A stretch of DNA of 64,000 nt from Linderina pennispora. Its lineage: Eukaryota; Kickxellomycota; Kickxellomycetes; Kickxellales; Kickxellaceae. The position numbers and the translations under genes were made by a program. The notes beneath the pieces are model-generated. The model was not told where the DNA came from, searched no databases, and was given only the letters and a program-made list of their open reading frames with translations. Position 1 is the first letter of the stretch. Every line of letters starts with the position of its first letter. The stretch is taken from positions 372,001 through 436,000 of the forward strand of contig NW_024468258.1 of the NCBI RefSeq assembly GCF_002104995.1, given 5' to 3'. This document shows positions 422-59,692 of the stretch, one piece after another.

Positions 422-632
422 AATGGTAGTTATATAACTGTGACCATTCTGTAGCCCTCACTTACAACTCTTAGATATATTTGTTAGTGTATTATTCCTT
501 TCTATAGAGTAATTGCTTTTCCAAAAGAACTATCATCTGGTATCTAAATATGAGTTAGCTGTATATCTCTCCTATTAATATGAATATCTAAATAGTAGTA
601 GGAATGTCCTCTGAATATACAGAGTGCATATT

Positions 633-2636: not shown

Positions 2637-2645
2637 TTTTAGAAA

Positions 2646-2885: not shown

Positions 2886-2893
2886 AATGGCTG

Positions 2894-5133: not shown

Positions 5134-6734
<1,601 letters not shown>

Positions 6735-34432: not shown

Positions 34433-35793
34433 CTAGATGACATCGTCAGGATCTTCAGGCGGCAGATGCAGCGGGCCCTCTTGGTCCTCGGTCTTTGACG
34501 ACAGGAACATGACGCCTACTGCCAGCAACACGATGCCGATTGAGATCATGGCAATCTGGAGGGTGCTGAGCAGCTTGATCTGGTCAAAAGTACACGAGCG
34601 AGCTGACTAGGGCCATCAGTGAGCTACTGCAGTAGGTGAGCGGCACAACAGTCAGCGTGCTGCATAGACGCAGAGCGCGCTGGATGTAGTAGAGGTTGGC
34701 TAGGGCGGTGGCCACCAGACCAACGACAATGGCCACAGCTAGTGGGTCATTGAACTGCATGTTGCCGCGCACAGTCAGAACGAGCAAGCCAATCCCGGAT
34801 TTGGCCAGCAGCAGGGTCTGGCTGCAGATGAGGCCCTGATATTATTGCTGAGAGGAACCCCGAGATGTACTTGGCTAGCTGGGCGGCCCGGCTAACCTTA
34901 GCCTCCTGCGCCAGAATGCCGCTGGCCTGCGAGAAGTGGCTGCGGAACATGCTATCTGCAGAGGCCGACGAGTCTGTGATGACCAGCGAGGCCGGCGGCA
35001 GGGTGCCTGTCGCTGGGGGCTGTGTCGGCGTTGGTGGAAGCGCAGGCTCTGTATCGGCTGGGCGGGGTGTCGGGCGACGGGTGCCTACCGCAGTGGCTAG
35101 CGAGTCTGTTGATGATGCGTACACGGATGAATACGACGACAGAGAGTCAGCCAGCAGCGGTGTTCCCTCACCAGCCGTAAACCTGGTCGCAGTAGCGCCC
35201 ACAGTACCTAGGGGAACCCTGGCTGCCCCCGCGATCAGCGTGCGGACCCATGGCTCTGATACTGCGCACCACCTGTTCTCCTCACCAGCCTGTCGTACCT
35301 GTGCCTCCAGAGCAGCTCGGCTAGAATCAGCGCCAAGACAGCCACAGTATATCCCGGCGAAGAACACAGCATAGGCTTTGCGTCTGTACAGCTTCATTAG
35401 TTCGGCTAGCGAAAGGGGTGGCTCGTCAATGGCACCAAACACCGCCACGCTGCTGCTTCCGAGGGCCACCAGCAACGTGCCGAAGGCGTCGGTCCGCGCA
35501 AAGGTGCTGGACAAAATGTACCGCGCAAAAACAGCGTTGGCCACCAGCCCGACAGCAGCCAGGGGCGCAGCGACAAAGACAGGAAGGATACTAAGTGCCA
35601 GTGTTGGCGGTACAGTGGAGCTGAACAAGTACAGGGCCAGCCCGGCTTGCCACTCGCTGTCGCGCCATGTCTTTGAGTTACTGCCGAGTGCCTCCAGGCG
35701 CAGGTGGGCGCGTTTCTGCAGAGTCATGCCGAGCGAGTGGCCAAGCGAGCCTGTGACAGACGCCAGGACACCGAGAAGCAAACGTGCAAACAT
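34433..35793 (-). CDS. NIPA-type magnesium transporter, frame broken twice
   Basis: Membrane protein of the NIPA/DUF803 family. Helices 1-5 lie in residues 1-165 (MFARLLLGVLASVTGSLGHS, TLALSILPVFVAAPLAAVGL); a long Ser/Thr/Pro-rich loop (about 185-285) follows, then the terminal helices (GLICSQTLLLAKSGIGLL, PLAVAIVVGLVATALA, YCSSSLMALVSSLVYFDQIK) and an acidic tail ending PEDPDDVI. Two single-base excesses break the frame: near 34839-34846, and in the A-run 34586-34589, where the frame otherwise reaches TGA. Removing one base at each gives a continuous family-like protein of about 452 residues. I treat them as sequence errors. Expected substrate is Mg2+ at endosomal or plasma membrane. Confidence 0.75.
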
Positions 35794-36344
35794 GAGGGGG
35801 GGAATGCAAATAATAAGTCGTTAAATTAAGATAAAAAAGCGGGCGTGAACAAGTGAAGAGGACAGGAAAGAGATAGAGAAGCGAAAGTAGCAGGAGTGTG
35901 GAGAAGAGGGGGTGCAGTGTGAGGCAAGACGTGTGAGACAATGACTGCTGTTGCTGCTGTTGCTGGCTGCTGGCTGCTGCTGGCGAAAGGGACAAGTCTA
36001 TTTTTGGATCGCTCTCTCGAAGAGAGGCATTAATCAGACTCTCGGGTGGATCATCGCTAGCAAACTCTAGGACAAACCTGTGACCTGACTGGCCAGCCAG
36101 AACAGGCGCTGAATTGCAGCCTCAGCCCTCGCACAGTCAAGGGCGATGCCCAACCGGTTGCGCTGGTCCCAGTCTGGTCCCCAGATGCATAGACTTGGCG
36201 GGCACTGTCGTGACAACATGTGGGGGGACGGCGGTCGAGCCCCGCATGGTCTGGCCATCAGGGACACATAGAATGTAGATGATTCAGCATCTACGTCACA
36301 AGTAATAGTTAAAACAGCAAAAAAAAAGCAAGTAAAAGTTAGGC
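35794..36344. other. Intergenic region
   Basis: 551 bp between the NIPA start and the acyl-CoA oxidase stop. Poly-CAG-like GCTGCTGTTGCTG at about 35947 lies in the presumed NIPA leader. No gene seen. Confidence 0.4.
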
Positions 36345-38546
36345 CTACTCCTCCTGGTCAATCTCGAGCTCGGGCCCGGTCTCAAAGGTCTGGGTGCGCT
36401 CAAGCAGGGGCTTGATGAGCGAGTCAAAGTACGGGATGGGCTTGGTCGGGTTGAGGCTGGTGACCAAGCTCAAAGTACTTCTCGTAGACGTTGCCGTCGA
36501 AGCGGCCCAGCGGCGAGTTGACGACGTAGTCGGTGTAGTTGAAGGCATCGGTCAGCGGCACGGCGTCCTTGCGCACCTCGGAGCACGCGTGGTTGACAAA
36601 GGCCTTGAGGGACTCGACCTGCTCGCCCGAGTAGTAGCCGGCCTGCAGGAACTCGCCGCTGAACTGGACCGCCGAGTGGGCACCGAACAGGCGCGCCAGC
36701 AGCAGCAGCACGGGGCGCAGCCTGGGCAGGGCTCTGCTCGACCTGAGCGGCGAACCGGTGCAGCAGGAAGGTGTAGGTGTGCATGCGGGCAGCGTGCAGA
36801 CGCGACGCCGACGAGTACTCATAGGCGTTGTCCTTGCTCAGGCCCTTGGCCACGCCCTCCTCGAAGTCGCGCACGGCGTTGAGGATGGCGTTGGCCGACA
36901 CGCTGCTCCATGCCTCCTTGAGGGCCTCCAGCGACGCAACCTCGTCAGGCTTGGAGCCCTTGCACGTGCGGCGGGCAGCCTTGCCATTGGGCGCAATGGC
37001 GTCCTTCAGGTAGCTGAGGTTCGCTGGCAGCGGCTGGCCGTTGCGGGCCTCGATGGCAGTGGAGACCAGGTAGCGGCCGCACTGCAGCGTCAGAATGGTG
37101 TTGTCGCCCTCCCACGTGCAGTGCACAGTGAAAGTCGGCGTATGCCTGCGACAGGCCCGTGTAAGCCGAGTAGCCGTGGCCGCCCAGGCTCTGGCGGCAC
37201 TGGTCAATGATGTTGAGACACATCCACGTGCAGAATGCCTTGAGCCCAGCGCTGGTGGCATGGGTCTCCTTCAGGTTCTTGATGGCCTCGTCGACCTCAG
37301 CGCCCTTGGCGTCGCCCAGCCCGTTGAGCTGCGCCATCAGCGCCTCGTAGTTGGCCGTGATCTCGCGTGCAGTGAAGATCATGGCGAACGTCTGAGCCAT
37401 CAACGGCAGCAGCCGGTGCTGGTGGATCGGGTAGTCGAGCAGCTTCGTCTCGGCCTTGCCGGGAGTTCCGTCGCTGAACTGCCGCCGCACCGCCGCGTAG
37501 CGCGTGGCGATGGTCAGCGCGCGCTTGGCCACGTTGGCCGAGTCGCTGACCATCGAGACACGGCCCTGGAATCAGCGCTCCATAGGCCAGCTGCGCCAGC
37601 GGCGGGTCGATGACATCACCGGCCTTGGTGACCTTGGTGTGCTTCATCAGCATGTGCGACCGCGGGATGCGCACGTACGTGAACCGGATCCATCCGTTGT
37701 CGATCTGGTCACGACCCATCTTCTTGCCGAGATCGCCAATGTTGACGCCGGGCATCAGCTCAAACGTCTGCGTGTCGCGCAGCTGCACCACAAACGTCTT
37801 GGTGCCGTACCGCTTGCCCTTGACGATCAGCTGCGCATACACCGCGCAGTGCGAGGCCTGTGTGCGCTGCTCCGCCGATCCACCACTTTGTGGCCGTCAG
37901 CGTCGGCGAGTGGATGATGAACTCGTCGGTGCTCTCGTCCAGCGTCGCCGTCGTCTCGAGCCCAGCGACGTTCGAGCCGTGGCCCAGCTCCGTCATGCCA
38001 AAGCACCCGGTGATGCCCTGCATCGACAGCGCCCCCTTGTCCATCCAATACGCCAGCTGCGACGGCGTCGCCTGGCCCTGCAGCGCGCCAAAGAACAGCC
38101 CAAAGTGCACGCCGAACCGCGTCCAGAAGCCCGGGTCCACAACGCTGATGACGCCCAAGCGGACCATCGTCTCCTCCAGCGGCCGGGTCGTGGCCAGGTC
38201 TGCCAGCCGCCGCACCTTCTTCATTGCCCGCTCGCGCGTCTCGGCCAGAGTCAGGTTCGGGTGGTCACTGACCCGCCACAGCGGATCGCGCTCCAGCTCG
38301 AGCATGACGCGCTCCTTGAGCTCCGTTGTGCGCTTGCCGCCGTCAATCCAGTACGTCAGGTCCCGCACCGGGAACGACGGGTTCTTGCGCTCCTCGGCAA
38401 TGCTCTCCATAGGGCTAGTGCAAATGTTGAATTGCTGAGTAAAACTGGTCCAGTGGTCTCATAAAGAATAGCGCTGTGAGTGGTGGCGTGGGGACGACTT
38501 ACTTTGCGACAACCGGGACTGCGCTCGTGGTATCTGTGGAAGCCAT
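36345..38546 (-). CDS. POX1: Acyl-CoA oxidase (peroxisomal), frame broken five times
   Basis: Exon 1 complement(38503-38546) encodes [14 protein letters not shown]. An 88-bp intron follows, then exon 2 complement(36345-38414) starting [20 protein letters not shown]. Family landmarks are [30 protein letters not shown] then [57 protein letters not shown] and [11 protein letters not shown]. The frame changes near 37855-37858, 37570-37571, 37131-37133, 36720-36731 and 36464-36467. Each is one extra base and the family alignment resumes immediately. The enzyme does the first step of peroxisomal beta-oxidation, passing electrons from acyl-CoA via FAD to oxygen. The C-terminus ends ELEIDQEE, so no obvious PTS1 is seen. 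Treated as one intact gene with sequence errors. Confidence 0.85.
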
Positions 38547-39312
38547 TCTTTTCTAATCTATGGTATCAGGCCTGTGGAACAAGGGTGTGGTGGTGGTGAT
38601 AGTAGCGTCGTTCGCTCCTCAAATAGCGAGTAGAGAGGGATTAGAGAGTACAAGTGAAGAGAAAGGGATTTGTGCTGCTGGCAAGTGTGGCATGGGCTGG
38701 ACGCCTCTTTAAATACGCCTGCTGGCCTTGTCATATGAAAGAAAGGATGCAGAGCTCCATTGGCAAGTTGACTTTCCCTCACATCCTCTATTCCCCCGCT
38801 CTAGCGTAGAAGCACGGGCGCAGCTAGCATTAATTAGTAGCCAAGCATGTGAAACCCATTGCTGCCCGTCGAGAGCATGTGAGCGGAATCACCGCCCTTT
38901 GGGCTTTCACGCGCCCAGAGCTGACTTTTCGACGGCCCCAGACAGGCTTGGTTCGTGCTGCCAATCCCATGTGCACCGGCGGATTCAGGTGCTTCCGAGA
39001 ATGGAGGTCAGCGCTGATGCCAGTTTCACAGGCTGCGCCGGGCTGCCTTCTTCTTTCGGATAGCGAATATAAGGTTCTCTCTTGGCCGGTGCGGCGTGGG
39101 TGCGTGGCCAGATCACCACTGTTTTTCCTTATTCAGATCCATCAGCCCTCCCTCCCAGCACGCATATGCCAAGCGGATACATACAACGCATGGACGGCAC
39201 CAGAGGAGGGCTGTAGTGAGATGCTATTTGAGTTTGTACATTGAAAAGAGTTTAAACACGGGCACTAATTGATATAGAGACGGGCTGGCCTGTGGATTGC
39301 GCGGCAGGGGGT
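38547..39312. other. Intergenic region
   Basis: 766 bp. The acyl-CoA oxidase promoter (minus-strand TATTTAAAG near 38708-38716) and leader occupy the first 200 bases. No other gene supported. Confidence 0.4.
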
Positions 39313-39474
39313 CTACATGTAGTACCCCGGGTAGTGCATGTCGCGGTGCTCGACAAACGCATCGATCGATGTGCCCTCCCACCCGCAGTCTGCACACGCA
39401 AAGTGTCCGTCGTTGGCATTGCGGAAGCAAGTCCAGCGGGGGTTGGCAGGTCTGGTGCTGTGTCCGGCGCACAT
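39313..39474 (-). CDS. 53-residue single C2H2 zinc-finger mini-protein
   Basis: A short frame starting MCAGHSTRPANPRWTC. It carries one classical C2H2 finger: Cys-x2-Cys-x12-His-x3-His in FACADCGWEGTSIDAFVEHR then DMHY, preceded by a Trp-Thr-Cys-Phe-Arg strand, and ends PGYYM. A minus-strand TATA box AGTATAAAAG (39581-39590) lies about 110 bp upstream, the same spacing as SEC53 and the P450 gene. That makes a real small gene likely. Function unknown; a nucleic-acid or protein-binding adaptor is possible. Confidence 0.5.
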   Translation of the reverse strand: MCAGHSTRPANPRWTCFRNANDGHFACADCGWEGTSIDAFVEHRDMHYPGYYM

Positions 39475-39916
39475 TTTTTTCAAAGAGTGTAAAAATGCGG
39501 TGATGGGGGTAGTTTTAAATTAAACAGGGGTAGAGAGGCGAGAGGCGAGAGGCGAAATCACGGCTCCTCCGGGGCAACCGCTTTTATACTTGACAAGAAA
39601 GACAAAAGCCGTCAATTTATGCTGCTTTTTTCTCGCCTCCCCTGCTGCGTTGTCCTTTAGAGCCGTCCGGCGGCATAAATGCGAGCTGTGCATTATCTGC
39701 TTTTGGTCCTGACTGGCCGCCATTTATTTAAAGGTCATGTGATGCACTTGGCCTCTCTCCTTTGCCCTCGTTCCGAGGGCTCACACTTGTTCGCTTCATA
39801 GCAGACGCTGCTGCGTTCCCTTTATTTGCCTGTCACAAAGCCAGACAGAACCCAATGCGCCTCGCCCCCTCTGTCTCGCCACCCTTTTGTTGCCTGCAGA
39901 TCCCGTCGAGTCTCTC
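39475..39916. other. Intergenic region
   Basis: 442 bp between the mini-protein and the TFIIIC subunit stop, both on the minus strand. It contains the mini-protein promoter and TTATTTAAAGG near 39725. Confidence 0.4.
39581..39590 (-). promoter_or_regulatory. TATA box of the C2H2 mini-protein
   Basis: AGTATAAAAG on the minus strand, about 110 bp upstream of the ATG at 39474. Confidence 0.45.
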
Positions 39917-42134
39917 TCACCACCCGCTGAGCGCTGGGGAAGCGCCGGATGGGGGCGGAGAAACAAAGCGCGCCTCGCACTCTGCAGACTTGCCACGCTG
40001 AGCACGCTCTGTCAGAGCACAGACCAAAAACTTGCCTCGGCAGAAGGGGCACGCAGGGAATTCGCCCAGCACCCTGCCCACCAATCCCCGCATTGCCCGA
40101 GACATGCAGCCGCTTGGCTCTGCACGTCTGGCACTGCTCTGATCTCGGCTCTCTGAGCACCGCCAATGTCACGGAGCACACATCTACAGTTGCAAACCCA
40201 GTTTATAAGGATACTCTACTTGCGTCATCCCACATCCCCCGGTGTTTGTGACTCCCACACTTACCAAAGATGTGCTTGTTGGTGCACACAGCCACCTGCT
40301 TCGAGTGCAATTGCATATCTACAGCAGCAAATATATGCTTAGTGTCATCACGCCCGGCATCCGCGCCAATCCCACACCCATGTCACTGATACATTACCGC
40401 TGTGGCAGATTGGGCACTGTTGCGCCTCGGCATCATTTTCTGTCCTGCACAGCACGTCAGGCAAGTCGCCAACAATGTCTGAAAACACTGGTTCGTGAAC
40501 TGCCCAGCTGACGTGTTTCAGGTACTCATTATCCCCGTCTACAGAGACACAAGTGTGTGTGAGTGAGAAACCCCCTATTGCAAGCGCACAATAACATGCA
40601 TGGTGCACCACCCTATTGACACAAGGAGAACATACCTTCCAGCACAAATCCCGCCTCTAGCGTGTCCTGGATGTACGAGAACAGCGCCTGCACATGAGTG
40701 TCCAGCGCGTCGCCTCGTGCGCCCCTCAGCAGCTGGGTCGCCTGCTCGCCCTACAAAATAGTGCAAACGCCGAGTAAGTGCAGTGGGCTGTCACGTTTTT
40801 TCTTTCGTGCCTTTTTGGCTGCTGTTTTAACCTGCCTTGCACTTTGCCCCGATCATATTGAGCATATACAGCTGCTGCCCATGCGAGCCAGACACATCCA
40901 GCAATGCTTGCACAAGGCCCATCACGCGCGCCTCCGACAGCCCGCTGAACAGGTCCCACACCACCGCCCACACGTCGTCCTGCCCGACCGCCTCCTTGAG
41001 CGCCAGCTCCGCCGCTGCGTCCGTCCAGTCGTCAAACTGGTGCAAGTGGATTCTCGTCACCCCCTGTCCATCCGACCCAATGCTCCAGTTCGTCTGGTCA
41101 TCTGCCACAAACATCAGCCTGCGGCCGCAAGGCGACATGTGCAATCCACGCAGTTGCAAACGTGCCATGACAAACGGCGTTGTGAACGAGTCCTCCACAG
41201 TCCTCCGGAGGCCGCCTCTCAGCTGGGTCTCCTCGGACAAGCTCCGCACCCACCCAGCGCCAGTCTTCTCAAGAACAAAGATGCTGAAATCAAGCGACCC
41301 AATGTATATGCGGCCACGCTGCTTGTCCACCGCACAGCTCGTGACTGAATCGCTCACACCCAGACGCACTACAGCAGGCGCCGTGGGATTGTGCACATCC
41401 ACCACGAAAGCCGTGCCGAGCTTTGCATAGCACAATCGTATCGGGCGCTGCCTGGCACACTGTGAACTGCCGCATATCAGCGCTCCCCAACACACACAGA
41501 CGCGTGGTACTCGACAAGTCCCTCGAGACCCGCCACAGCACTGCGGTTCCATCCGCAGAGCAGGTCACCAGCACGCAGGAATCCTCGGCTGTGTCCTCTG
41601 CCCATGCCATGCTGCTGATCAGATCCTGGCCACTCGCAAATTCGAGCTTCATAGCTACCTCCAATGCCCCCGGCTCTGCTGCCTGGATAACAGCCAGCGA
41701 CACCACTGCCGCCCATCGTCCCTACGGCTACCACCGGCACCGCACTGCCCTGCCAGGTAACTGACGTCGCTGCTACCGAACAAGCATGCCGGTCCCCATA
41801 TCCAAACCCATGCCGGGCAACCTCATCCCACTCCAGCGCACTCTGGTTCCCAGGCGCCATGAACACGCGGATCGATGAGTCGCTGGCCAGCAGCACCAGC
41901 GTGTCTCCAGTCAGCGGCGAGCCCTGGGCATGCAGTGAGCATACTGAATCCCTCAATGTTTTGCTCAGCCTCAATCCCTACCGTCATCTCGCGCTGCTTG
42001 GGCACCTCGCCCTCAAATGTAAGCTCGGGCATGATGACAAATACGCGCATGCATGTCCCAACCACCCACTTGTTGCTGCTCGTGTATGCAATGCCTCCGA
42101 CTGTAAATGGCGGCCGTTCAAGCGTGATATCCAT
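39917..42134 (-). CDS. TFIIIC subunit with WD-type N-terminus and C-terminal zinc finger (GTF3C4/Sfc9-like)
   Basis: Five exons: complement(40836-42134), (40636-40750), (40398-40538), (40265-40318) and (39917-40183). The start MDITLERPPFTVGGIAYTSS opens a beta-propeller (SVAATSVTWQG, SCVLVTCSADGTAVLWRVS). The C-terminal exons encode a TFIIIC-type zinc domain: QCPICHSG, then VAVCTNKHIF, then VCSVTLAVL, EQCQTC and PACPFCRGKF. Frame breaks, each one extra base, occur near 41929-41936, 41701-41706, 41421-41434 and within 40045-40110. Exon 1 ends best at AAG/GCAGGT, a GC-AG intron, or else another error hides a GT site. The complex recruits RNA polymerase III to tRNA genes. Family assignment rests on the order propeller plus zinc domain. 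Confidence 0.62.
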
Positions 42135-42248
42135 CGAGAAAGAAATAGGCCGTAAAAATTGATATATTGCCCAACAAACCATATGCGCACATATAGCCTG
42201 CTACATAGCGAAATTTCGCCCTTTCGACATAATTATGGCGACCGCACC

Positions 42249-43524
42249 TTATGCAAAACCGACAGTGACTTCGAGGCTGGTTGGCAGCGTCGGATCTGTG
42301 ACTGTCAATGTTGACTGGTCCGGCACCAGGTTCTGCTACCTTCTTGGCCAGATTCGGTCTGGTCTCCTCCTCCAGTGCTGGCGGATTCTGGAAGTAGAGG
42401 CTGGCCGTGCCAAACGTCAGCGTCGGTGCCTTCAGGCGCAGCACCGAGTCCTCCTTGAGCTGCTCAATCAGCTCCTCCAGCGTTGCGATCCTTAGCCACC
42501 TGCACCGACTGCTTGCTGGTTGCCGCACACCAGGCAGTCGGGCGACTTTTCAAGCTCAAACGTGTGCGAGTGGATGCCAATGTCGCCTGAATAAAACATG
42601 TAGTTGGTCAGTCATCGGGTTGCACATCGTCACCAGCTTCAGCGCCTCGTTCGTGCACGCCGCCGCAATAATCGCGTTGGTCGACGCAATTGCCGGAATG
42701 ATGTTCTTCACCACGCCCTGTGTCAGCGAGTACGTGATTCCCGAGATGTTAAACTTGTTGGCTCGCTCCGACGCCCGATCGACCAGCCATGTGATGTGCT
42801 CTGGGTTGTCCCCATCCAGCTTCTTGTCTGGAAACACCCTGGGCCACTCGAGCACCGACGCCCATTCGATGCAGTGCTCGGGTAGTCGCGGCGTATTGGC
42901 AATGGTGCAGATCGGATACGTCGTCTTGGCGCCGTGCAAGCTCAGCCCACACTCGAAGCACGCACTAATTGACGGCAAAACAACTCTGGCATTACCCTTA
43001 AACCCCTCAGTGCCGCCATCAATCATCGGCTTGAACCCCTCGAACCCATGCGAGTCCACCAGGCTGTGCAGGTACGCGTTGATCCACCGCCTTGCCTCGA
43101 TTGAGTCCAGACCGCAAATTACCTGGGTGAACTGCATGTAAAACTCCTCTGGCATGTCCTGGATCTTGGCGCGGTGCGGCGTAATGCTGACGTTTGGCGA
43201 CCGCCGCTTGATAAACTCGGCTGCCACCTCTGCCTTGGGCCGGCCAACGTCGTTCTGCCGGAATAGGAATTGGCGGTTCAGGTTGCTGACGTCGATTGTG
43301 TCCATGTCGATTACGTGGATGTTGCGGAACCCCGTCATCGCCAGGTTCTTGAGGATCTCGCAGCCAAGGCCACCAGCACCAATAACAAGAATCATGGCCT
43401 TGTCAAACAGGTCCTGCGGCGTTTCGCCCGCTTCATTGACAAGCTCAAAGTTTTCCACGTGAGGAGCCTCGAGTTGGAGGAACCGCTCGACTCCGGCGGG
43501 ACGCACTGTAGTTGTAACCACCAT
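42249..43524 (-). CDS. UBA3: NEDD8-activating enzyme E1 catalytic subunit
   Basis: Start MVVTTTVRPAGVERFLQ at 43524. The adenylation fold is clear: MILVIGAGGLGCEILKNLAM, VIDMDTIDVSNLNRQFLFR and KPMIDGGTEGFKGNARVVLP. The catalytic cysteine is in PICTIANTPRLPEHCIEWA. The E2-binding ubiquitin-like C-terminus (ATLEELIEQLKEDSVLRLKA) ends at the TAA 42249-42251. Four single-base excesses break the last third, near 42606-42613, 42507-42520, 42481-42493 and 42327-42335. Removing one base at each gives 423 residues, the usual size. With its partner Ula1 it charges Rub1/NEDD8 for cullin modification, a pathway also used by the F-box protein and elongin A in this window. The start lies 1.4 kb from the TFIIIC gene start, same strand, and the two genes are 114 bp apart. 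Confidence 0.9.
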
Positions 43525-43932
43525 TCCTTTGAAATTTGCAATAACAACGGCGGAAAATTGACTGCGGTTAAAGCGAGAAATAATGGAAGTGGAATAAAAG
43601 CAGCAACCCCAGCAACTAGATGACGTTGGCTCGATGTCGATTCTGGTGCCCGAGCCGTGGCTCGCAGTAGTAGCGGCTCGCTCAAAGCTGCTGCATTGCC
43701 GCCGAGGCGCCATGTCTGGCAAGCAGCACCAACATGCGGAGGTTGCAAGGCTGCACTGATCACTGGCGACAAAGGACCGAGCATCAATAGGAAGGCTTAC
43801 ATGAACGCCTTCCGCCAACATCCATTTCCCCTCAGGCCAGTAGCAGCTGAAAGGGCACGATGAAGTAATATGTCTTTTATTGAACGGCTATTAGAGAAAA
43901 ACGGAAAGTCAGGGCACCCAGTGCCATTTTTT
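43525..43932. other. UBA3 upstream region
   Basis: 408 bp. An upstream in-frame extension of the UBA3 reading frame exists here but is low-complexity and not conserved-looking, so I treat it as leader. No gene otherwise. Confidence 0.4.
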
Positions 43933-44094: not shown

Positions 44095-45767
<1,673 letters not shown>

Positions 45768-46568: not shown

Positions 46569-46615
46569 TTGGCAGCTCTTTTTAAACCAAGTCGAATAAA
46601 AACCTATGAAGGTGC

Positions 46616-49600
46616 TTAGAACAGGCCCTTGATGTCGCCGGTCTCGGGGTCGACGTCAATGTCGTAGAAGCACGGGCGCGTGGGCAGACCCGGGAGCGTC
46701 TGCATAGCACCGCACAGCGGGTAGACGAAGCCGGCACCCAGGCTGGCACGGATATCGCGAATAGGCAGATCGAAGCCCTCGGGCGCGCACTTGAGCTCGG
46801 GATTGGCCGAGAAGCTGTACTGGGTCTTGGCCATGCACACAGGCATCTTGTCCCAGCCGTTCCTGGCAAACTCGGCCAGCTTCTTCTCGGCCTGCTCGCT
46901 AAAGCTGACCGACCCAGCGCGATAGAATTCCCGGGCGATAGTTTCGATCTTGTCCTTGATCGGACAGCTCCACATCGTACAGGAACTTGAACTGGCTCTC
47001 CTCTTGTCTGTCGCAGCACTTGATGACGGCATCGGCCAGATCCACGGCTCCAGCACCGCCCTTAGCCCACAGGTGGGCGGGGATCGCATCGTACGCGCCA
47101 GCCTCAAGCGCCAGCTTGCGGACAAGCGCAAGCTCTGCCGGTGTGTCGGTCGAGAAGGCGTTGATAGCGACGATAGCCGGGATTCCAACCTTGCCCACGT
47201 TTTCAATGTGGCCGGCGCAGGTTGGCAAATCCCTTCTCGAGCAGGTCGAGGTTCTCCTGCGTGTACTCGTCAGCCAGCGGCTTGCCAGGAACCACCGCAG
47301 GGCCTCCGCCGTGCATCTTGAGTGCACGCACAGTGGCCACAATGACAGCAGCATCCGGGACCAGCCCCGAGGCACGGCACTTGATGTTGACAAACTTCTC
47401 GAATCCAATGTCGGCGCCAAAGCCGGCCTCGGTGACAACATACCCAGAGTTCTCGGGGGTCACGAGCTCGCCAGCAGGCACGCCAACCAGCTTCAGCGCA
47501 ATGCGGTCGGCGACAATCGACGAGTTGCCATGGGCAATGTTGGCGAAGGGTCCAGCGTGGACAAACACGGGCGAGCCCTCCAGCGTCTGCATCAGGGTCG
47601 GGTTGATCGCGTCCTTCATCAGCACAGCTAGAGCGCCGGTGATGCCAATGTCGTCGCACGTGACCGGCTCGCCCTGCTTGCTCATGGCCACCACCATACG
47701 GCCCAGACGCTCGCGCATGTCACCCAGCGATGTGGCCAGCGCAAGTACAGCCATGATCTCGCTGGCGACGGTGATGTCAAAGCCAGTGTGGCGCGACATG
47801 CCGCGCTCGGTGGCCGCCTCGCCGATGGTGATCTCGCGCAGGAACCGGTCGTTGGTATCCATGACGCGGCGCCACATGATGTTGTCCTTGTCGATATCGA
47901 GACGAACAAACTTGGAGATCTCCTCGGGTGTCAGCTCCTCGGGGGTGGCCTTGTCGATGCCCAGTTTCTGTAGGCGCCGGTTCATGATATCAGCAAATTT
48001 GCGCACACCCTTTTTCTTTGGGCACAGGCGGTTGAACAGCTGCGTGTCAGTCTGCGTGTTCTCGTGGAAGAAGCGCGCGTCAACGGCAGCTGCCACCAGG
48101 TTGTTAGCAGCGGTGATGGCATGGATGTCGCCAGGTCAGATGCAGGTTCATCGACGTCATCGGAGTCACCTGCGAGTAGCCGCCGCCAGCAGCACCGCCC
48201 TTGATGCCAAAGGTGGGTCCCTGCGACGGCTGGCGTACACACGCAAATGTTGGCTTGTTGCGATGGGCGTACAGCGCCTGCGACAGGCCAATGGTGACTG
48301 TAGACTTGCCCTCGCCAAGGGGAGTCGGGCTGATACCGGTGACTACAATGTAGCGCCCGTTGCTGTTATCCTTGAGGCGGTCAATGACGTCGAGAGTGAC
48401 CTTGGCCGTGTGCTTTCCGTACGGCTCGAACTCGGCATGCGCCAGGTTCAGCTCGCTGGCGACCTGTGCGATCAGCTTCGGCTTCTGGGCGCTGGCAATC
48501 GCAATATCGCTAGGGACAGGATCCAGCAACGTCAGCGCGCTCGGCACAATCTTGACCTTCGATGTCTCCTCAAAGTACCGCTTGGCGCTGGTGACTACGT
48601 TGCGCAGCAGCATGGCTACCGTCATGGGGCCGACGCCGCCAGGCACAGGGGTCATATACGACGCGCGCTCGATGGCCGAGGCTTCGACATCGCCGACCCA
48701 CCGGTATCCGGCCTTCTTGGTTGCATCGTCCTTGGCGTTCATGCCAACATCAACCACAACGGCTCCAGGCTTGATCCAGTCGGCCTTGACAAATTCGGCT
48801 TTGCCAATGGCCACAACCAAAATATCGGCGCCCCGCACCTTGCTCTCGATGTCGTCGGTGCGGCTGTGGCACAGCGTCACTGTGGCATTCAGGTTAGTCA
48901 GCATCATGGAAATTGGCGAGCCAACGATGTCGCTGCGGCCAACCACGACTGCGTTCTTGCCAGCGATCTCCACATTGTACCGCTCCAGGATTTCAATGCA
49001 GCCGAGCGGCGTGCATGAGTAAAAGTGCGGTTCAGTGGCCCGCTTCGACAGGTGCCCGATGTTCTCAGCATGGAATCCGTCGACGTCCTTCTCGGGAAGG
49101 ATCGAATGCACAATATGCTTGGTGTTGAGGTGGTCGGGCACCGGCAGCTGCACAATAATCCCGTGTACCGATGGGTCGTTGTTGACCTGGTCCAGGCGGG
49201 CATCCAGCTCTGCCTGCTGGATATTCTCGTCGAGCTGGACGTGCTCAAAGTCAATGCCGATCTACAAAACAAGCTGCCGTCAGTGGACAATTGGTGGCTG
49301 GATTGCTTTCGTGTCTGTCCACCAGGTGGATAAGGGGGTGGCTGCCAGGGATGTGCATGCAATATTGTCGTGTGCATATTGGCGCATTCTCTATCCCCCC
49401 TTCAGTTCCGCGGGGTGCTCCACTAGGTGCTCCACTAGGTGCTCCGCTGGGTGCTCTGCTGCAAACCAGCAGGAGGCCCCGGATCAGGGCTGCATGGCTT
49501 GCTGAATACTCACCTCGTTGCACGCCTTGGACTTTTGTCGAATGTACACGCTCGAGTCGCTGCGGGCGCCGACCTGAATTGCCATCAGCTTGGGCTTGAA

Positions 49601-49820
49601 CGTCGGGTGCTGCTTCTTGAATGCCGCAACCTCTTCCTTGAGCTCCAAACGGACAGCCCTAGCGGTACAAACAAATGCGTGTTGGTCATCAGTGGCTAAA
49701 GAGCGGGGCTGGAAAAGGAACAGTCTATGCAGTAGTCGCATATCAGGGAACTTACTCCGAGATGGCCTTGCCGTCCAGACGGACGCCAGTGGTCGGTGAT
49801 GCGGTCTTTTCTTCAGCCAT
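46616..49820 (-). CDS. ADE3: C1-tetrahydrofolate synthase (trifunctional), frame broken three times
   Basis: Exons complement(49756-49820), (49514-49658) and (46616-49261); introns of 97 and 252 bp fit in phase. The N-terminal dehydrogenase/cyclohydrolase domain shows [18 protein letters not shown] (catalytic Tyr and Lys), [20 protein letters not shown] and [16 protein letters not shown]. The synthetase domain carries the ATP loop [15 protein letters not shown] and runs to [11 protein letters not shown]. One extra base breaks the frame near 48128-48138, 47212-47226 and 46957-46970, with perfect continuation afterwards. The N-terminus [20 protein letters not shown] lacks a mitochondrial leader, so it is the cytosolic form. 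It interconverts one-carbon folates for purine, thymidylate and methionine synthesis. Confidence 0.92.
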
Positions 49821-52160
49821 GCTTGATAGCGGTGCGTTTATAGAGAGTATCTGTGATGAGTGGAAATAGCGTACTGAAAGGCCTGCAGGCGGGGTTTGTA
49901 AAGCGCGACTAAAAGTGCTGGCTGGAAAGCGCGGATAACAGAATTTTGTAGAGCAAAAGGGCATGATACCGCCCGGTTTCGGCGCTGCTCTAGAAGGCGT
50001 GCGAAGCCGAGCTGGAAGGGCGATTTGGCGGTTCAGCGATCTGCGCATTTTTAATTACTGAACCCCTTCCGTGCGATTAGGATGGCGCAGGCGTGAGAGT
50101 AGCCTGGAGTTATGCGAAGGCTCGAGCCAGCTTTGCGATTGCCTGTAGGGGTGGCAGAGCTGCAGGGAACTCGCTAGGTGTCTTTTCTTTGCTTCGGCCT
50201 TCCTCGTAATAGCCCTCCGATGGTGCTGGTGTGCAGGGAGAGCGGGGTAGAGCGAGCCGTGTTATTGTTGGGTGTGAAAACACAAAAAATTTGGTAGCTT
50301 GGCGAAACTAGGGAACCACTGCCGTATGAAGAGCGTCAGTGTAGGGCTGAGTGTCAGGTTGGGGTAGGTTATGTGCCACGCCCTGGCAGATGTCTTACGG
50401 AGTGCACAAAGAAGCTGTCGATGGAAGCGAGCAGACGAAGAGCTTGAAATAAGCGGTCTCTTGGGCGCTAGGGCCAATGCATGTCTAAGGTGGCTGGTGT
50501 GGTTGATGCTGCTCTAAGTGGTCACTGTAAAGCTGGCTCCTTATGTGGCATCGCTGATTGCTCTTACGGAGCCATTTTTTGGTATCTCTGCGCACCATCC
50601 CAGAGGTAGTATGCCCATCGAATAAACACATTGCCTTCTCGTTGTATTGGTGCTGCTCAGTAAAGCGTGAAATTGCTATGGGAGCGAATAATGCCAAAAT
50701 CTCTATCCTTCATAGAAGATTTAATATTCCAAAAATGCTCGACCATCCGCTAGAACCTTTTTAGTTAGTTGAAAACATCCACGCTCTTTTGGAGCCTCAC
50801 AGCGAGTATGCGTGGCTCGCCCTGTAAACTCTTAACAGTACTATCTTTTGGTCGATGGGTTCAGATCCTGAGGCGACAAATATATGTCTTCAAAGCACTC
50901 GAAACATCAGGCCCTAGAACCTTGGTTCTATCAAAGTACCATTCATGTCAGTTCGCATTTTGTAGATGCAGTAATGTAATAAACAAACCACTCCACCTCC
51001 ACATCCTCGGCACTCGGACTTGGAACCATGGGCTTAAGTCAGGTGGGGATGATAACAGGCTGTCTACACCGACCCGCAGTCGGTCTCATTGTTTTATGAG
51101 AGTGCTCAAAAAAGGAATCATTGGTTTGCTGGCCAACACATATCCTACATATAAAAGCAGCCCTTCCTGCGTCCATCTGCCTTTTCTAATACTTCAGCTT
51201 CCTTCCACACATTCCGATATCCCTACAAACCCCTCCTTTAGATTCCGTTATTTAATCCTCGTAGCTGCCAGCCATGCCATACCTCAGTGCGGGGCTCGAC
51301 CCGATGAATGTGCATCGGCAACCACTCGATGGATACGTCTGACTATGCAAGAACCACCTGCCTTGGGCAGTGGGATGAAGCCCCACTTTTGTTCTGCAGC
51401 CTTCCGCGATAAACGTCAGCTATGCCATACCTACAGGCTGGCTGCATTGAGTTCTCTTGGGCACATACCTCCTGCTGTGCCAGACAGGCAATACTCTTGC
51501 AAGGTTTTGCTACCGACCCTGCCCCCGATGGGTCTGCTGTCACCCAGACTGCAAGCAAGTCAAGCAAGCTAAGAAGTGCCCAGCTGCTGCCAGCAATGAC
51601 GAGCCAAAGTAGCGTGGCCTGTGCCGATCAAGCCCCCAAAACAAGCCCTCAACAAGAGCTTTCTTGAACTTTCCGGGTAGTTGCTATCGGCCTCAGACCA
51701 TGAAGCCCTGCGGTAGATTTCCTGCCACACTTATTGACTGTCTAAACCATACTGACTAGCCGAGCTTGCATCGCGAGGGCCATAAGTCTGGTAGATACAG
51801 ATTAAGCAGACCCTTTGGAATATACCCTTAGCACCGTGCATCACCATCGCGCAGTACCTGGGTTTAATATACTTTAGTAGCGAGTGACCACTCTCGATAT
51901 CCACAACAGACACACCAGTACCTCAAGGCAACCCTCCGCAGGCTACCTGTTCATCGACAGATCAGCAAATTTCAGCGATCCTGCAGATTCACGATCACCA
52001 CCACAACGCCTACTCTATAAATGCAACACAAACCTCTCGACTGCCCTGAGTTGCAAAGCAAGTATGAACGACATCCGATTACCTTCCGTATAGTTTGAAA
52101 TCACAACAACACGCCCTTTCCTTCACTGCATTTCTGTAACAGCTTTTATTGCACTCTTCT
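49821..52160. other. 2.3-kb intergenic region, possible cryptic secreted peptide
   Basis: No gene can be firmly supported. At about 51148 a good TATA box (ACATATAAAAGC) is followed by a pyrimidine-rich leader and then, without an ATG, a signal-peptide-like frame (FRFRYLILVAASHAIP, about 51238-51286) and Cys-containing segments in shifting frames up to about 51660. Since this interval carries many single-base insertions, a small secreted protein could be hidden here. Confidence 0.3.
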
Positions 52161-55100
52161 ATGGACAGCTGGGTAAGCGCCGTGTCTTTTTGGGTTTGGA
52201 GCCATCGCGGCCATGGTTCTTGGAGTCCATGCAGTGCGGGTTGCTAGGCGAACCTCCTGTCGACCGCTCGTTCCAACCCCCTTTACTGGCTACACAAGCA
52301 AAGTGTATCCTAGTAACCCTAGCTACTTTTCTCTCCCTGGTCGATATCTACGAATGGTCACGCATCACACAGTTGAATCCACTTGGCCTGCTTGGCTCCT
52401 ATTGCCCAAGCCTGCGCATCTGTAGCGTCACTACTCCTTCACTACATACAGCATACTCGTAGCATATATCCTTCCGATTTCTTACTCTTGTACTGGCCTG
52501 CGTCGATAGTTCTCTCACTGTGTTTGCTGAGACATGAAGCAAGTGTCGATCACCTCGCACTTCTGGTATCACGGATATTTTACTTGCTGTCAGCGCTTGC
52601 AGTGTTCTGCCTTGAGCTCAGGGCTGCACCCGATAATCCGCTTCTGCTGCTGAACGATGACGGTGGGCCGTATATATATGGGAATGCACACATCTATTCG
52701 AGGATCTCCTTCTCCTGGGCGACGTCCGGTGATCGATGACTGTCACCGAAAGCAGAGCAGAATTGCAGACAATTTGTTCCAGACACCAAGCTTGGATTCA
52801 GAGACAGACCATGCCATCCATGGTTCTCAGCAGCCTGAACAAGGAGCTCCGCAAACAGCCACTGTCTTTGCTTGGGATCTTGTGCAAGGGGCATACCACC
52901 GCTTTTGCCATCTCTGGTGTATGTCTGCTCCTGACTTATGTGTGCCGCGCCATGCAGCCCATTGTGCTCAAGGTGATGATACAATATTTCCAGGCGACCA
53001 GGCACTCCGGAGGATCGTTCGGTCGAGTACGGACTGGTGCTCTGTGTGTGTATGGCAGTACCAGGAATGGGCAAAACAGTCTTGTCTCAGACGTACTGGG
53101 AATATACCGTGCACCCATGGCTTCAGTTTATCAAGACACTGTCGGCGCTTGTGTACCGAAAGGTGCTTCGGATGTCAAACGAGACCAAGGCCAAACACTT
53201 CTACTGGCCAGATAGTGGCCTATATAAGTGTCGACATTGAGCAGTTTTCCTCATTTGTCCGACATGCGCATGAGCTGTGGGTATATCCGCTGCCAGGCTA
53301 TCATACTCATGCATATGCTATATAAAACTATCGGATGGAGCAGTCTGGTCGGGGTGGTGCTGCTTGTAGCTGATGCCGTTCTGGGCTTCCGCCTAGCCAG
53401 GTGCGATCGGTACCAGCACAAAGCAGTTCCTGCGCTTCCGCGACAAACGGATGCGGATGGTCAGCGAGGCGATCGGGAATTTCAAGGCAGTAAAGCTATA
53501 TGCATGGGAGCGCGCATTTATGGCAAAGATCGAAGGCATTCGCAACAATGAGGAGCTGGCAGCAGTGCGGAAGATGGGCGTATCGAAGGTTCTGATTGCC
53601 TTTACAGGCGGGCTGACATCGATTGTTGTTACACTCGGCACCTTTGGTGCGTACATGATATTTGGGTGTGAGAGCCACGGCCCGCTTACGTCGCAGCTGA
53701 TCTTTGTCTCTCTCTCTCTGTTCTTTTTGCTCCAGGAGCCTGTGTCGGGGTGGCCACGGGCTCTGTCATCATTCGTCACTGCCTCCAGGTCTTACGATCG
53801 ACTGAACGCCTTCCTCATGTGTCCTGATCGCGACCCTGAAGCCATCAGCCGCTTGGAGTACGATAGATATAGGGAATCAGCTTCAGCAAACGATGTTTTG
53901 GTAGATGTATCCGGCGCCTCGTTCAAATGGAATGCGTGCGAGGGAACGGCCCTGGAGGACATTAGTTTTGAATGCCGTCGCGAGGAGCTAGTTGCTGTCA
54001 TCGGCAAAGTCGGTTCAGGAAAGTCATCGATTATCTCGGCATTATTGGGGGACCTGGTCAAGACTGCTGGCTCAGCGACTCTGTGTGGGTCAGTCGCTTT
54101 TGTGCCGCAGCAGCCGTGGATCGTCAACACCACGCTCAGAAACAATATTTTGTTTGGCAACAAACTCGAGCAGGAGTTCTACGACAGGGTCATCGATGCG
54201 TGTGCGCTGCGTGCTGATCTTGTGACGATGTCTGGCGGTGATATGACCGAGATTGGCGAGAAGGGGTTCAACTTGTCCGGCGGACAAAAGGCTCGCGTTG
54301 CCCTTGCTCGAGCAGTATATGCGCGTGCTGACATATATCTGCTTGACGACCCTCTTTCTGCTGTCGATGTCCAGGTTGGCAAGCACATATTCAGCCATGT
54401 GCTGGGCCCCACGGGTCTTCTTAGGAACCGGGCCCGCATCCTTGCCACCAACAATCTGCAGGACCTTCGTGGCGTTGATCGAGTGCTGCTGCTGCAAGAC
54501 GGCCGTTTGGTGACATATGGTACCTTCACGCAAACCACTAATTTTCCCCAGAGAGGTGCTTCGGTTCATGCAAGGAGTTAAGGATGATGGTGTGTGCACC
54601 ATGCATTCATCGACCACACCAGCCGCAGAGACTGGTATTTGGGTGCCTGCTGTAGCCGAGCGTACATCTATGGTTGCTGAAGCAAACGTCGTAGGCAGGC
54701 AATGCACCATTGGCCGAGCTGAACGCAACAGTACCTGGGTTGACAACAATCGTGGCATTCATACAAGTGCTACTGGTGAACATGTCATTATCAAGGACGA
54801 TGTGGAGCATTTCGGCCAAGTTGGCGTGGATGTGTTTCGACACTATGTTCGGGCATGTGGAGCGCAAAATGTTGCGTGGCTTTTGCTGTCAGTCATTGCT
54901 ACTATGCTCTTGGTGATGGGCGGCAGTTTTTGGTTGGCACACTGGGCTCATACTAACGAGGAGAACAAGCAGCCAAGCCAACCAGTAAACTCGCTCTACC
55001 ACCTTTTGATATATGCAGCAATCGGTGCTGGTTCAGGAGTTTCCAGTATGGTGACTTTGGTTCTGCTCTGGCTCGTCTGTGCATCAGATGGCTCAAGACG

Positions 55101-56578
55101 CATTCACTCCCAAATCCTTCACAGCATCTTCCAGGTACCCATCTCGCTCCTGGATTCTATTCCGACCGGCCGGATATTAGGACTGTTCGGTAGCGATCTA
55201 GCAAAGGTGGATATTGTAATTCCTGGATGCGTTGATATCTGGGTTCAGTCGGGTATCGGGATTGCAGTTTCGATCATCCTGATATCCATGACCTCCTTAT
55301 TTTCGCTGCTGTTCCTTCCTCCGCTGGTATACCTGTTTGTCTCTATCCAGAAGCGGTCTATACCAGCCACCCGGGATGTCCGGCGCCTCATAAACAAATC
55401 GCGTGATACGATTATCACCGGCATCGAGGAAGCTGTGCATGGTGCAGTTTCGATTAGGGCGTATTCGCAGGAGAGACGGTTCGAGGTTAGCTCCGAGGCA
55501 AAAATCGAAAGGTACATGGCGGCATTGTGGACCTATGAATGTGCCGATCGATGGCTGATCTTCCGTCTTGACTCTATATGTGTGGCTATTCTGCTCTTTG
55601 TTGCATTCATGCTTGTCGGGATACAGCACTTTTCGGGCCGCATCGATAGCGGATTTGCCAGCTTGACTTTGACATATGCCATGTCAATGCTTGGGATGGT
55701 CAACATCTGCCTTCGGAGTTCTGCATTGTTGGAGATGTCGATGGTATCTGTCGAACGACTTCGAGACTATTCATTCCTGGAAAGTGAGGAGCAAGTAGCC
55801 GCCAGTGGCCATTCGGGCCCACCATGTTGGCCTGAGACAGGTGACATCGAATTCCGCAACTACTCCACCAGGTACCGCAAAGACCTAGGATCCTGTGCTC
55901 AATGATCTGTCGTTCAAGGTCCTTCCAAGCCAAAAGGTTGGCATTGTCGGACGAACAGGAGCTGGAAAGTCGTCGCTCGCCTTGGCCCTGCTCCGCATCA
56001 TCGAGCCTGACTCTGGGCAGATCTTGCTTGATGGCCAAGATATATCCAAATGCCCGCTGCATGACGTTCGCAGCCGTGTGTCCATCATCCCACAAGATCC
56101 AGTGATGTTTTCTGGTACTGTGCGCGAAAACCTGGACCCATTTGGCAGCTACTCCGACGGTGAAATATGGCGTGCACTAGATAACTCGCACATGGGCGAA
56201 TTTATTCGCTCCAAGAATGAACGCCTAGAGTCTGTTGTCACCCAGGGGGGCGAAAACTTCAGTGTCGGCCAGCGCCAGCTCATCTGCTTCGCACGCGCAC
56301 TTTTAAGGCGAACCAAGATCTTGGTTCTTGACGAAGCAACTTCGGCGATCGACGCATCCACCGACACTGCTATTCAACAGACGATCCGCAAAGAATTCAA
56401 GAGTTGCACCGTTTTGACAATTGCCCATCGTCTGAGCACCGTGCTTGATAGCGACAGGGTCCTAGTGATTGACAGAGGGAGAGCGGTTGAATATGACAGT
56501 CCGCAGAAGCTTCTTGCCAATAGCTGCAGCATGCTTTCGCAGCTTGTAGCAGACACAAAAGACAAAAGTTGCAAATAA
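52161..56578 (+). CDS. ABCC-family full transporter (MRP/Ycf1-like), frame broken about eleven times
   Basis: Start MDSWVSAVSF at 52161 leads into TMD0-type helices (FGAIAAMVLGVHAV, CILVTLATFLSLVD, LLLYWPASIVLSLCLL) and the linker IYSRISFSWAT. TMD1 follows (LSQTYWEYTVHPWLQF, ALVYRKVLRMSNETKAKH, TGQIVAYISVDIEQFSSFV). NBD1 has Walker A GKVGSGKSSI, signature LSGGQKARVALARA and Walker B IYLLDDPLSAVD. After TMD2, NBD2 has GRTGAGKSSLALAL, FSVGQRQLICFARALL and ILVLDEATSAID. The reading frame steps forward by one extra base about eleven times (near 52190, 52270, 52390, 52730, 52800, 53012, 53205, 53300, 53412, 54557 and 55893), always in the same direction. ABCC proteins pump glutathione conjugates into vacuoles; glutathione synthesis is encoded next door. 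Exact exon limits are uncertain. Confidence 0.82.
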
Positions 56579-56839
56579 TAATACTGCTATGGTTTGCGTA
56601 CAAAGCATTGGAATGAGCTGGGCCCTGCAACTGGTCGTATACGTTTAATTTTGATGTGCCTCTCCACGACATGCCTTAACGTGTATAATTTGACAACCAA
56701 TGCGTGAGATGTGCAAAATAACAAGTGATTTGGGTGTATATTCGAAAATATGTAAGACGGTAATGTAATGTACCATTAGGCAGAGGTTCAGTGAGAAACA
56801 TCGGAGGCAACCGAAGCAGCACCTGCCGCCCCGAGGAGC

Positions 56840-59692
56840 TCAGGGGCAGAGCGCCGGCCCGTCGACGATCTCGTTGAGGGCAACCATCAGATCGTAGTTG
56901 ACCTCTGGCGACACAACCGAGTCAAACTTGTACTCGGGATGGGTCCGGACGAAATTGCGGATCCAGGTTGCACCGGTCATGATCGAGCCATTGGCGCGGC
57001 CCTGGATAAACGCAACATACTCCTGGATTTTGCTCTTGACCTGGGCATCAAGCGTGACAGTATCGAGGTACATGAGCACAATCGGAACGAGTCCAACAAA
57101 CGAGTCTGACCCGTTGAGGATCTCGTTAGCGGACATCTCAGCAATCTCGTCGGCATCCTGTGCACTCTCTGGCTCCCCCGTGGCAAGCACATTGCGACGG
57201 AAGAAGAACTTTTCGTTCAGCACAGCGTCCCGGTTGTGCGCACGCTGCATGTTAATGTCCATGCGGGTCACAGGAATGTAGAGGTTGATGTCGTATGCAA
57301 GCAAGGCACGAGCAAGGAGGATCATAAACACAGAGAACGCAGCGTTCTCGTAGTCAGTGAGCTGAATCTCGAGCGGGCGGAACTCGACACGCCAGCCAAT
57401 CGGCGAATTAGGTGGCGGCGGCTTGAACCGCACGTTCTGCCAGTTCGTCGACTGAATGTTCTCAAAGTGGTCGGCTGAGACCGAATCGTCCTGGTGCAGC
57501 AGCTCCTCAAAGATCACCAACGGGTCGCGGATGAACAGATGGGCAATGTGCCGGGCCAGCAGATCATCAATGCCTTGGGTGAGCAGATACGCGTAGATCT
57601 CGCGGTCATAGACCAGCTCCAGGTCGTTGTACTCGGACTTGAAGTGCCCATCATCGGAGCCAAGGAATGTGTCGATGGTGCCATAGCGTGACTTGGGGAT
57701 GACGAACCGGTCCTTGGCCAGCGGTATCTCGCCGCGCTCTTCGCGGCGTCCGATCATCAACCGCTGCCGCAATAGTATTCCATCGGCAGTCCACGTCGGC
57801 CAGGTAGCCACGGAAAATCGGAGATGATGCTGACAGCGTCATCATCACCGCACCAACAACCGCCAGCTGGTCATACAAGCGACGGGCCTGGTTGACATTA
57901 GGTGCCTGCATGGTGATCTGCAGACAACAGCAGCCCATGCCGAAGCCCATGGCGTCCATGTAGATGTGGTCAGGCAGAGCAGCGCCCTCCTTGGCCTCCT
58001 TATCGCCCGGGAACACGTCGCGCTCGTACGGGATGGTCGGATCGATGAATGGCTTCGGCGTGTTGACGTCGTGGAAAATCGGCATGTTGATGGCGACCTT
58101 GGCGCCACGGCGCTCGCGGATGTTTGCGGCTAGAGTGCGGAAGCGCGGGTGCGGGTTGATAACCTCATCCGGCAGGAACAAGCTGCGCGAGAAGGTGCCG
58201 TTTGCCTTGTGGGGTGGCTCCAGGAAATCGCCGCTACCAAGCACCGGATAGCTGGTAATGGTTAGCAGCACCTTCATGGTCCTTTCAATGGTAGCTGGGC
58301 AATCTCGCGTCTACATCGGTGAGTTGAGAGGGGAGGATATTAGTGCACTAGTTCTGAACTTATCCGCAGGCGTGTCAGACCTTGGCTGCAGAGTTCCATC
58401 GGGTACAAAGACGCATAGAGATCGCGCAGGTTTCTCCGTAGTGTGAAAGGCATTCCCAGTGGCAAGCTGGACAGTTTTGCACCCCCGCCGATTTCCCAGA
58501 TCTCGTCGGTGGCCTGGCTCACCAGTGGGCTTGGTGGACCGAGCCAATCCCAGACCTATGTCCCTCCAGCTCCCCCAAAAAGAGATACGGGGTTTGTCTG
58601 GAGGCGGTCCGCTCGGCGCGATCCCTCCTTGTTAGTGGTTGCACATCGTCCAAACCCCCCAACAAGCAGCAATAACCAGGGAATAAACAATACCGACCTT
58701 CTCTTCATGCTTGCCTCGACGTTGACCAGGTCGTTGACTGTCGAGCGGTACGGCTGACCCGGAGTTCCTACATGGGGTTGTGAATTGCAAAAGACTTGAG
58801 TCCCATGGCGCAGATGAGTCCTCCCCGACACCATGTCTCGCTTCCATTTGCGACAGGGAGTGCGGGCTGGCGCTGTGTGATCATCGGTGCCGGCCGCCTG
58901 ACCAGCTTGACCCGCGAGAGCGGCATTCATCCACGTCTCATTAGGGCACGCTGTACGGCTGCAGCAAGTGCAACAAAGTGGCACGGCCGATAACACCATC
59001 GCCACAGGCAGGCATTGGCCAGAACCATGCTTAAATTAAAAGCACGCATCTCCTGAGAACTGCATCTCGGGGCAATGGCAGCCTATCGCGTCTGGAAGGC
59101 GGGCCATTGAGGAATGGGGAGGGGTGTCTGATACTGGCCGTGTGCAGTTTTTACCCTGGGCGCGGTCAATATCGTGCTTGGCAGTTATCGCAGGCCAATC
59201 TCCCCTCCCACCCGAGCCACGAAAAAAGATAACGATCTTCTCTGAGCAACAGAAAACTGGTGTCCTTTGCTACATACCTTCGATCATGTAGCGACCAAAC
59301 TCTGGCCGCCACAGCGCCTCGAGGTCGGGCTTTTCGCCTGTGCGCTTGGCCCGCTCAAGCTGCTCAGTCTCATCAACCTGCAGGAGCGCCAGAACCTCGT
59401 GGGCGCGCTGTGAGAGCCGCGCACGACGGTTTGTGTGATCCAGCGAGACCATCATGTACTCGACCTAGCGCGAGCAATTCAGTTCCAGTGCCTTTTGCTG
59501 TTTCTGAGAAGCCCAATTTCTGCGATGGCAAAAAAGACTTACCTCGTCGCCCCACAGCAGGCGGTCCTTCTGGCGGTCCTTCATGTTGCGCCAAATGTGG
59601 AGGAACTGCTCGATTCCGTGCTTGCGCACCTCATGCGCCAGTTTCTTGGCCTGATCCCAGGGAAGCGGAGTGCCGAGCGAAAGAAGACCCAT
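56840..59692 (-). CDS. GSH1: Glutamate-cysteine ligase catalytic subunit
   Basis: Exons complement(59543-59692), (59278-59464), (58698-58767) and (56840-58310), with introns of 78, 510 and 387 bp. Start [20 protein letters not shown] is the eukaryotic GCL N-terminus. Next come [91 protein letters not shown] and [13 protein letters not shown]. One extra base shifts the frame near 57740-57752. A net excess of two bases lies near 58290-58300, after REIAQ and before [10 protein letters not shown]. It makes gamma-glutamylcysteine, the rate-limiting step of glutathione synthesis, and is usually feedback-inhibited by glutathione. A minus-strand TATA-like TTTATAAG lies near 59880. The exon joins match the family exactly, so the long introns are real. 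Confidence 0.9.

Follow-up and report, generated by a model that had tools for sequence, protein, structure and literature searches.

Residual single-base insertions and deletions (indels) in long-read bacterial assemblies can disrupt the reading frames of genes that are in fact intact, and so misguide annotation, as the accessible portion of the Kastor paper describes (PMC12007338). In Trypanosoma brucei Lister 427, according to the available part of PMC8445201, apparent frameshifts in a diploid PacBio assembly that was held once vanished after phasing. Most early-diverging fungi covered by the accessible text of PMC6784888 are not haploid, including three of four Zoopagomycota. Here we describe frame breaks in the soil fungus Linderina pennispora, within a stretch of 64,000 bases (the window) that corresponds to positions 372,001–436,000 of contig C2 (801,100 bases; whole assembly, 26,172,285 bases in 222 contigs). 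Genes on both strands between ~34.4 and 58 kb of the window are interrupted by single extra bases. We conclude, with a probability of about 95%, that the breaks are an assembly artefact: surplus single bases left in the consensus where one sequence copy was held.

In both L. pennispora and the Kastor cases, as far as that text goes, leftover single-base indels fragment intact genes; the latter concern bacterial genomes, have either sign and occur mainly in homopolymers, whereas the L. pennispora breaks are nearly all +1 and cluster in patches linked to the lack of a second contig. The likeness to T. brucei lies in the collapsed, once-held sequence; in the part of that report available, errors are associated with allelic repeats and with variants close by, whereas the extra bases at the patch edges in L. 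pennispora mostly copy their neighbour. The non-haploid Zoopagomycota find their counterpart in contig pairs of 97–99% identity in the L. pennispora assembly, although this species is not among the ploidy cases in the accessible text and a mixed culture would look alike here.

A frame-aware aligner was used to match proteins of intact relatives to the window (Table 1). Five genes, encoding UBA3, acyl-CoA oxidase (ACOX), C1-tetrahydrofolate (C1-THF) synthase, an ABCC transporter and GSH1, together contain 21 single-base +1 breaks and no convincing -1 break. An initial annotation of the window had counted about thirty single-base breaks; numerous single-base +1 breaks were indeed recovered, from both strands, of which ~25 are firm. 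Its counts for UBA3, ACOX and C1-THF synthase were reproduced exactly, all as +1. ACOX matched a Martensiomyces protein (P0122) at 608 of 687 residues with its five breaks, and the FTHFS profile, the main C1-THF synthase domain, is covered end to end in changing frames (profile positions 2–127, 128–362, 361–443 and 434–556). The ABCC gene is broken by +1 shifts as claimed, at seven supported places rather than about eleven: a net +1 is called there with four of four or three of four Coemansia/Kickxella relatives. Calls of -2 by the aligner in this gene represent the same frame change as +1. Three of four relatives gave a -1 or -2 near 54.56 kb, a place at which a same-species protein (P0127) aligned with an intron, and two -1 calls near 52.38 kb came from one relative only (P0244) at a badly conserved N-terminus.

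For GSH1, two +1 breaks are clear where about three had been proposed, with Pfam GCS positions 1–78 and 73–372 lying in two frames; the aligner also gave an ambiguous -2/+1 pair of calls near 58.51–58.55 kb, at the poorly conserved N-terminus. A GSH1 paralogue occurs in two copies elsewhere, L036 on contig C112 and L038 on C151; L038, close to the start of C151, has -1 breaks and the C112 copy has none. The NIPA-type transporter gene is broken, as a break called by a codon model (below) and extra bases relative to a second contig, C148, indicate; judged from the reading frames, at least the two extras closest to the extreme end of C148 appear to be bases lost from C148, not bases gained by C2. 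A PDB search with the NIPA frame matched nothing. Four breaks reported in a TFIIIC gene were not confirmed: a Pfam search with two ORFs (open reading frames) of this region matched no family, and one break was called by the codon model.

Table 1. Features of the window, with positions in window coordinates.
Feature	Position	Strand	Basis
NIPA-type magnesium transporter gene, frame-broken	34438..35793	-	Pfam PF05653, residues 6-145 of ORF 34747-35793; codon-model break near 34.59 kb; extras relative to C148
Left edge of the patch in the NIPA stretch, overlap with the end of C148 (window 35,583)	34380..35583		13 extra-base events in C2 (11 single), 0 in C148
ACOX, five +1 breaks near 37.86/37.57/37.13/36.72/36.47 kb	36348..38416	-	Pfam pieces in several frames; alignment to P0122
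Region first labelled TFIIIC, identity unconfirmed; coding signal, one +1 break near 41.94 kb	40827..42094	-	Codon model
UBA3 (NEDD8-activating enzyme E1), four +1 breaks at ~42.33-42.61 kb	42252..43524	-	Alignment to L. pennispora P0001
C1-THF synthase, three +1 breaks near 48.13/47.21/46.96 kb, two ordinary introns	46619..49820	-	Alignments to P0132 and P0147
ABCC transporter, seven supported +1 breaks (six at ~52.7-53.4 kb, one near 55.89 kb)	52530..56578	+	Four relatives and L. pennispora P0127
GSH1 (glutamate-cysteine ligase), two clear +1 breaks near 57.74/56.86 kb	56818..58277	-	Alignment to P0146; Pfam GCS
Spf1-type P5 ATPase, unbroken control; second copy on C148 at 99%	14047..17904	+	Alignment to Martensiomyces
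Fused cytochrome P450-reductase, control; single open frame of 1,193 amino acids; second copy on C148 at 98%	29918..33499	-	ORF

Other records of L. pennispora itself encode UBA3 whole, and C1-THF synthase over the part available, without these breaks. UBA3 matched P0001 (423 amino acids) at 416 of 423 residues once its four +1 breaks were crossed; P0001 lies on a contig of 5,154 bases and therefore derives from another record. C1-THF synthase matched the partial protein P0132 (722 amino acids) at 718 of 722 residues with three breaks, all +1, and the identical set of three was obtained with Martensiomyces P0147 (816 of 941 residues identical). The ABCC gene matched P0127 (partial, 871 amino acids) at 836 of 869 residues over 53,400–56,401 with two introns and one +1, the last of the seven. 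The same-species comparison thus covers UBA3, a 722-residue portion of C1-THF synthase and, in ABCC, the last break only, and ACOX, GSH1 and the ABCC N-terminus were compared to other genera. ABCC and C1-THF synthase proteins of the species were obtained with chimeric queries; among the matches listed for these queries there was no same-species protein for ACOX, TFIIIC, GSH1, Spf1 or a biotin ligase (L022).

The uniform sign and the exact resumption of each frame would be expected if the genes were translated by a biological +1 frameshift. UBA3 and the available part of C1-THF synthase of the same species run on without frame changes, however, which contradicts such a mechanism, and the shift is not conserved. 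The extra bases also occur in non-coding sequence and are absent from the second copy on C148; genes with a second contig have no such breaks; and the sites share no common form, 12 of 18 lying in a run and six outside one (among them runs, doublets and single bases; no search for a motif was made). Programmed +1 frameshifting was therefore rejected, and we consider translational frameshifting of these genes almost inconceivable. The initial annotation had likewise judged it very unlikely, had favoured uncorrected insertion-type errors and had proposed comparison with independent sequence of the species. That comparison, in which UBA3 was intact throughout and C1-THF synthase over the available part, bears out both judgements.

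Breaks were also sought independently of relatives, with a three-periodic codon hidden Markov model (HMM) that has frameshift and intron states and was trained on 59 long C2 frames outside the window. Planted insertions and planted deletions were each found in 46 of 51 cases, so that the HMM has no sign bias. At 34.4–58.3 kb of the window it called 11 +1 and no -1 breaks in 11.0 kb of coding sequence. In the flanks, whose genes were described initially as unbroken, it called no +1 and one -1 at 6–34.4 kb (20.2 kb coding) and none of either sign at 58.3–64 kb (3.2 kb coding). The Spf1-type ATPase aligned to its Martensiomyces counterpart over 1,284 residues with no breaks; the P450-reductase control rests on its open frame, its alignment match being to itself. 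The latter gene has about fifteen more matching places at 70–78% on other contigs, an expanded family.

The breaks had been thought confined to one 24-kb interval, which is wrong; +1-rich patches recur elsewhere on C2. The HMM was applied to C2:312–516 kb and to four 10-kb samples from elsewhere on C2. The 204-kb stretch yielded 25 +1 and two -1 breaks (14 and 0 at a stricter cost), including 7 and 0 at 439–446 kb and scattered +1 calls at 312–332 and 457–465 kb. The four samples gave 17 +1 and two -1, mostly from 200–210 kb (12 and 1).

The location of the patches follows the presence of a second contig. C148 (77,323 bases) starts at C2:329,375 and ends at C2:407,583, which is window position 35,583, and a second copy of C2:486–496 kb lies on C206 at 97–98%. 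Searches with the ACOX stretch, C2:201.0–209.8 kb and C2:436.0–445.9 kb found no second copy, and the FTHFS stretch was taken as held once because its profile matches C2 alone; a genome DNA search with window 46,600–58,300 was dominated by a repeat, left its own place unlisted and is uninformative on this point. This repeat, at ~50,700–51,800, has dozens of relatives at 70–87% identity on many contigs. Stretches with a second, 97–99% identical contig comprise 51.2 kb (45.1 + 6.1) of coding sequence, in which the HMM called no +1 and one -1, whereas four stretches without one gave 5, 3, 7 and 12 +1 calls in 2.0, 1.9, 7.0 and 8.1 kb, a total of 27 +1 and one -1 in 19.0 kb. The samples had been picked as broken or clean before second copies were looked up, and these counts do not extend to 312–329, 446–482 or 496–516 kb, nor to the 0-, 100- and 600-kb samples.

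Direct alignment of C2 with the two ends of C148 locates the extra bases on one copy. At the left end of C148 (C2 329.4–331.15 kb), C2 has 19 single extras and C148 has one; in the next 3.2 kb inward (to C2 334.4 kb), C2 has none and C148 four. The other end shows the same imbalance (Table 1). The two edges together have 30 single extras, of which 23 repeat an adjacent base, six form a transition pair and one does neither; by our calculation, ~44% of randomly inserted bases would match a neighbour. The figure of 23 is approximate, because alignment of runs favours copies and two far-right extras look like losses in C148.

Another reading takes these genes as real pseudogenes or as one decaying haplotype, in which case cells would survive on a working second allele absent from the assembly. 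Decay does not readily produce almost only single +1 changes with hardly any deletions or long indels, nor strike many unrelated housekeeping genes at once, and the patches end at the contig ends of C148, which biology has no reason to respect. No spare copy was found for FTHFS, whose profile matched on C2 only in a search of the assembly, or for ACOX at this identity; GSH1 has the diverged paralogue on C112/C151. Decay of a spare copy therefore does not fit FTHFS. With 21 +1 and no convincing -1 breaks in five genes, pseudogene decay was rejected, and we regard it as very unlikely. Exceedingly improbable is the particular form in which the extra bases truly occur in the genome: in once-held stretches the assembly would have dropped a working second allele that the strain retains, while the assembled allele would be gathering single-base insertions.

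The sequence context of the extra bases bears on how the artefact arose. Of 22 coding breaks examined, 18 were resolvable. The breaks had been placed mostly at doublets or triplets, and 12 of the 18 do touch a run, but random insertion predicts a proportion of 0.50 (p 0.12). Thirteen are synonymous doublets (expected 0.47; p 0.028), nine are transition doublets (0.24; p 0.015) and all 18 are compatible with codon position 3 (0.73; p 0.0035); relative to pure duplication, the position-3 excess has a p of 0.22. Retained second alleles would appear as transition doublets at third codon positions. In once-held stretches, reads of both haplotypes may have been piled on a single contig, leaving a consensus that retained the two alleles or was misaligned close to sites where they differ; the breaks would still be artefacts, caused by heterozygosity rather than thin coverage. 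The doublet classes agree with this, as do the right-edge extras (five of 11 transition pairs, no transversion), the position of the breaks where a second contig is absent and the 1–3% difference between haplotypes. The collapsed PacBio assembly of T. brucei had indel errors near allelic variants, as stated in the accessible part of PMC8445201. Against it, the sign would be expected to be mixed more often, and 17 of 19 left-edge extras copy their neighbour, too many for second alleles, so that plain insertion is favoured there and retention of both alleles was rejected as the sole cause. We consider haplotype mixing possible rather than probable as the explanation, and it may contribute to the extra bases, as far as their sequence context indicates.

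The breaks, their sign, the intact same-species proteins, the patchy recurrence and the link to second-contig presence directly support an assembly artefact. The surplus bases themselves almost certainly arose as insertion errors, judged from sequence comparison rather than reads. Contig pairs of 97–99% identity, without single-base gaps in both pairs checked (C157/C171 and C112/C18), indicate two haplotypes or two strains; the strain therefore looks heterozygous, or two strains are present. Its sequence would exist in two forms, 1–3% apart, which the assembly would keep as separate contigs in some stretches and as one in others. In several of the single-held stretches an under-corrected consensus would retain surplus single bases, mostly neighbour copies, of the type inserted by raw single-molecule long reads, which we take to be the platform of this assembly. 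The likeliest reason would be thin usable coverage, with reads insufficient both for assembling a second contig and for correcting the existing one. A surplus base within a gene shifts its frame by +1.

Several observations weigh against this interpretation. The excess of transition doublets is unpredicted by plain insertion. In the mostly non-coding sequence at window 33,245–34,380, extras run both ways (eight events in C2, seven in C148). The pair C112/C151 is of opposite sign, with -1 breaks in the C151 copy; deletions in this small contig mean that the sign is not uniform across the assembly. C2 436.0–439.05 kb is clean though it has no second copy, and the link with second-copy status is thus not exact. 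The C148 span was compared, base by base or by search, at 329.4–334.4, 386.1–391.2 and 401.9–407.6 kb only, the remainder being assumed collinear from the size of C148. Finally, the HMM called nine +1 and one -1 breaks within its 59 training frames, which are open by construction, and its training set takes in stretches later proved broken.

The frame breaks have no biological meaning; their value is as a warning on the gene models of a reference genome, with error patches that are predictable from missing second contigs. Deposited L. pennispora proteins P0003, P0121, P0125 and P0143 match the window exactly if frames jump by introns (335/335, 618/618, 895/895 and 976/976 aligned residues). 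The deposited models cross the breaks by GT-AG 'introns' at or beside them, of 79, 35 and 25 bases in UBA3, 37, 49, 34, 34 and 49 in ACOX, 106, 34 and 19 in C1-THF synthase and 58 in ABCC; nine of the 12 are shorter than 50 bases (19–49). These bridging introns are false. The UBA3 model (P0003) has 335 amino acids against 423, and the ABCC model begins only after six upstream breaks. Intron counts, gene losses and per-gene DNA methylation derived from this assembly need checking. The available part of PMC8298701 singles out L. pennispora as exceptional among early-diverging fungi for its few genes methylated with N6-methyladenine (6mA); assembly quality might contribute to this low number.

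Two further features lie outside the broken genes. Window positions 1–6000 are AT-rich (30–35% GC against 55–60%), no Pfam family matched the ORFs at 2067–2636 and 2894–4528 (-) in this stretch, and the segment looks foreign or mobile. On contig C201, matches at ~836–901 kb are mirrored about 868.77 kb (855,300 on the plus and 881,718 on the minus strand; 836,408 on the minus and 900,097 on the plus strand), a palindrome-like arrangement of at least 65 kb that is possibly a hairpin-type mis-join.

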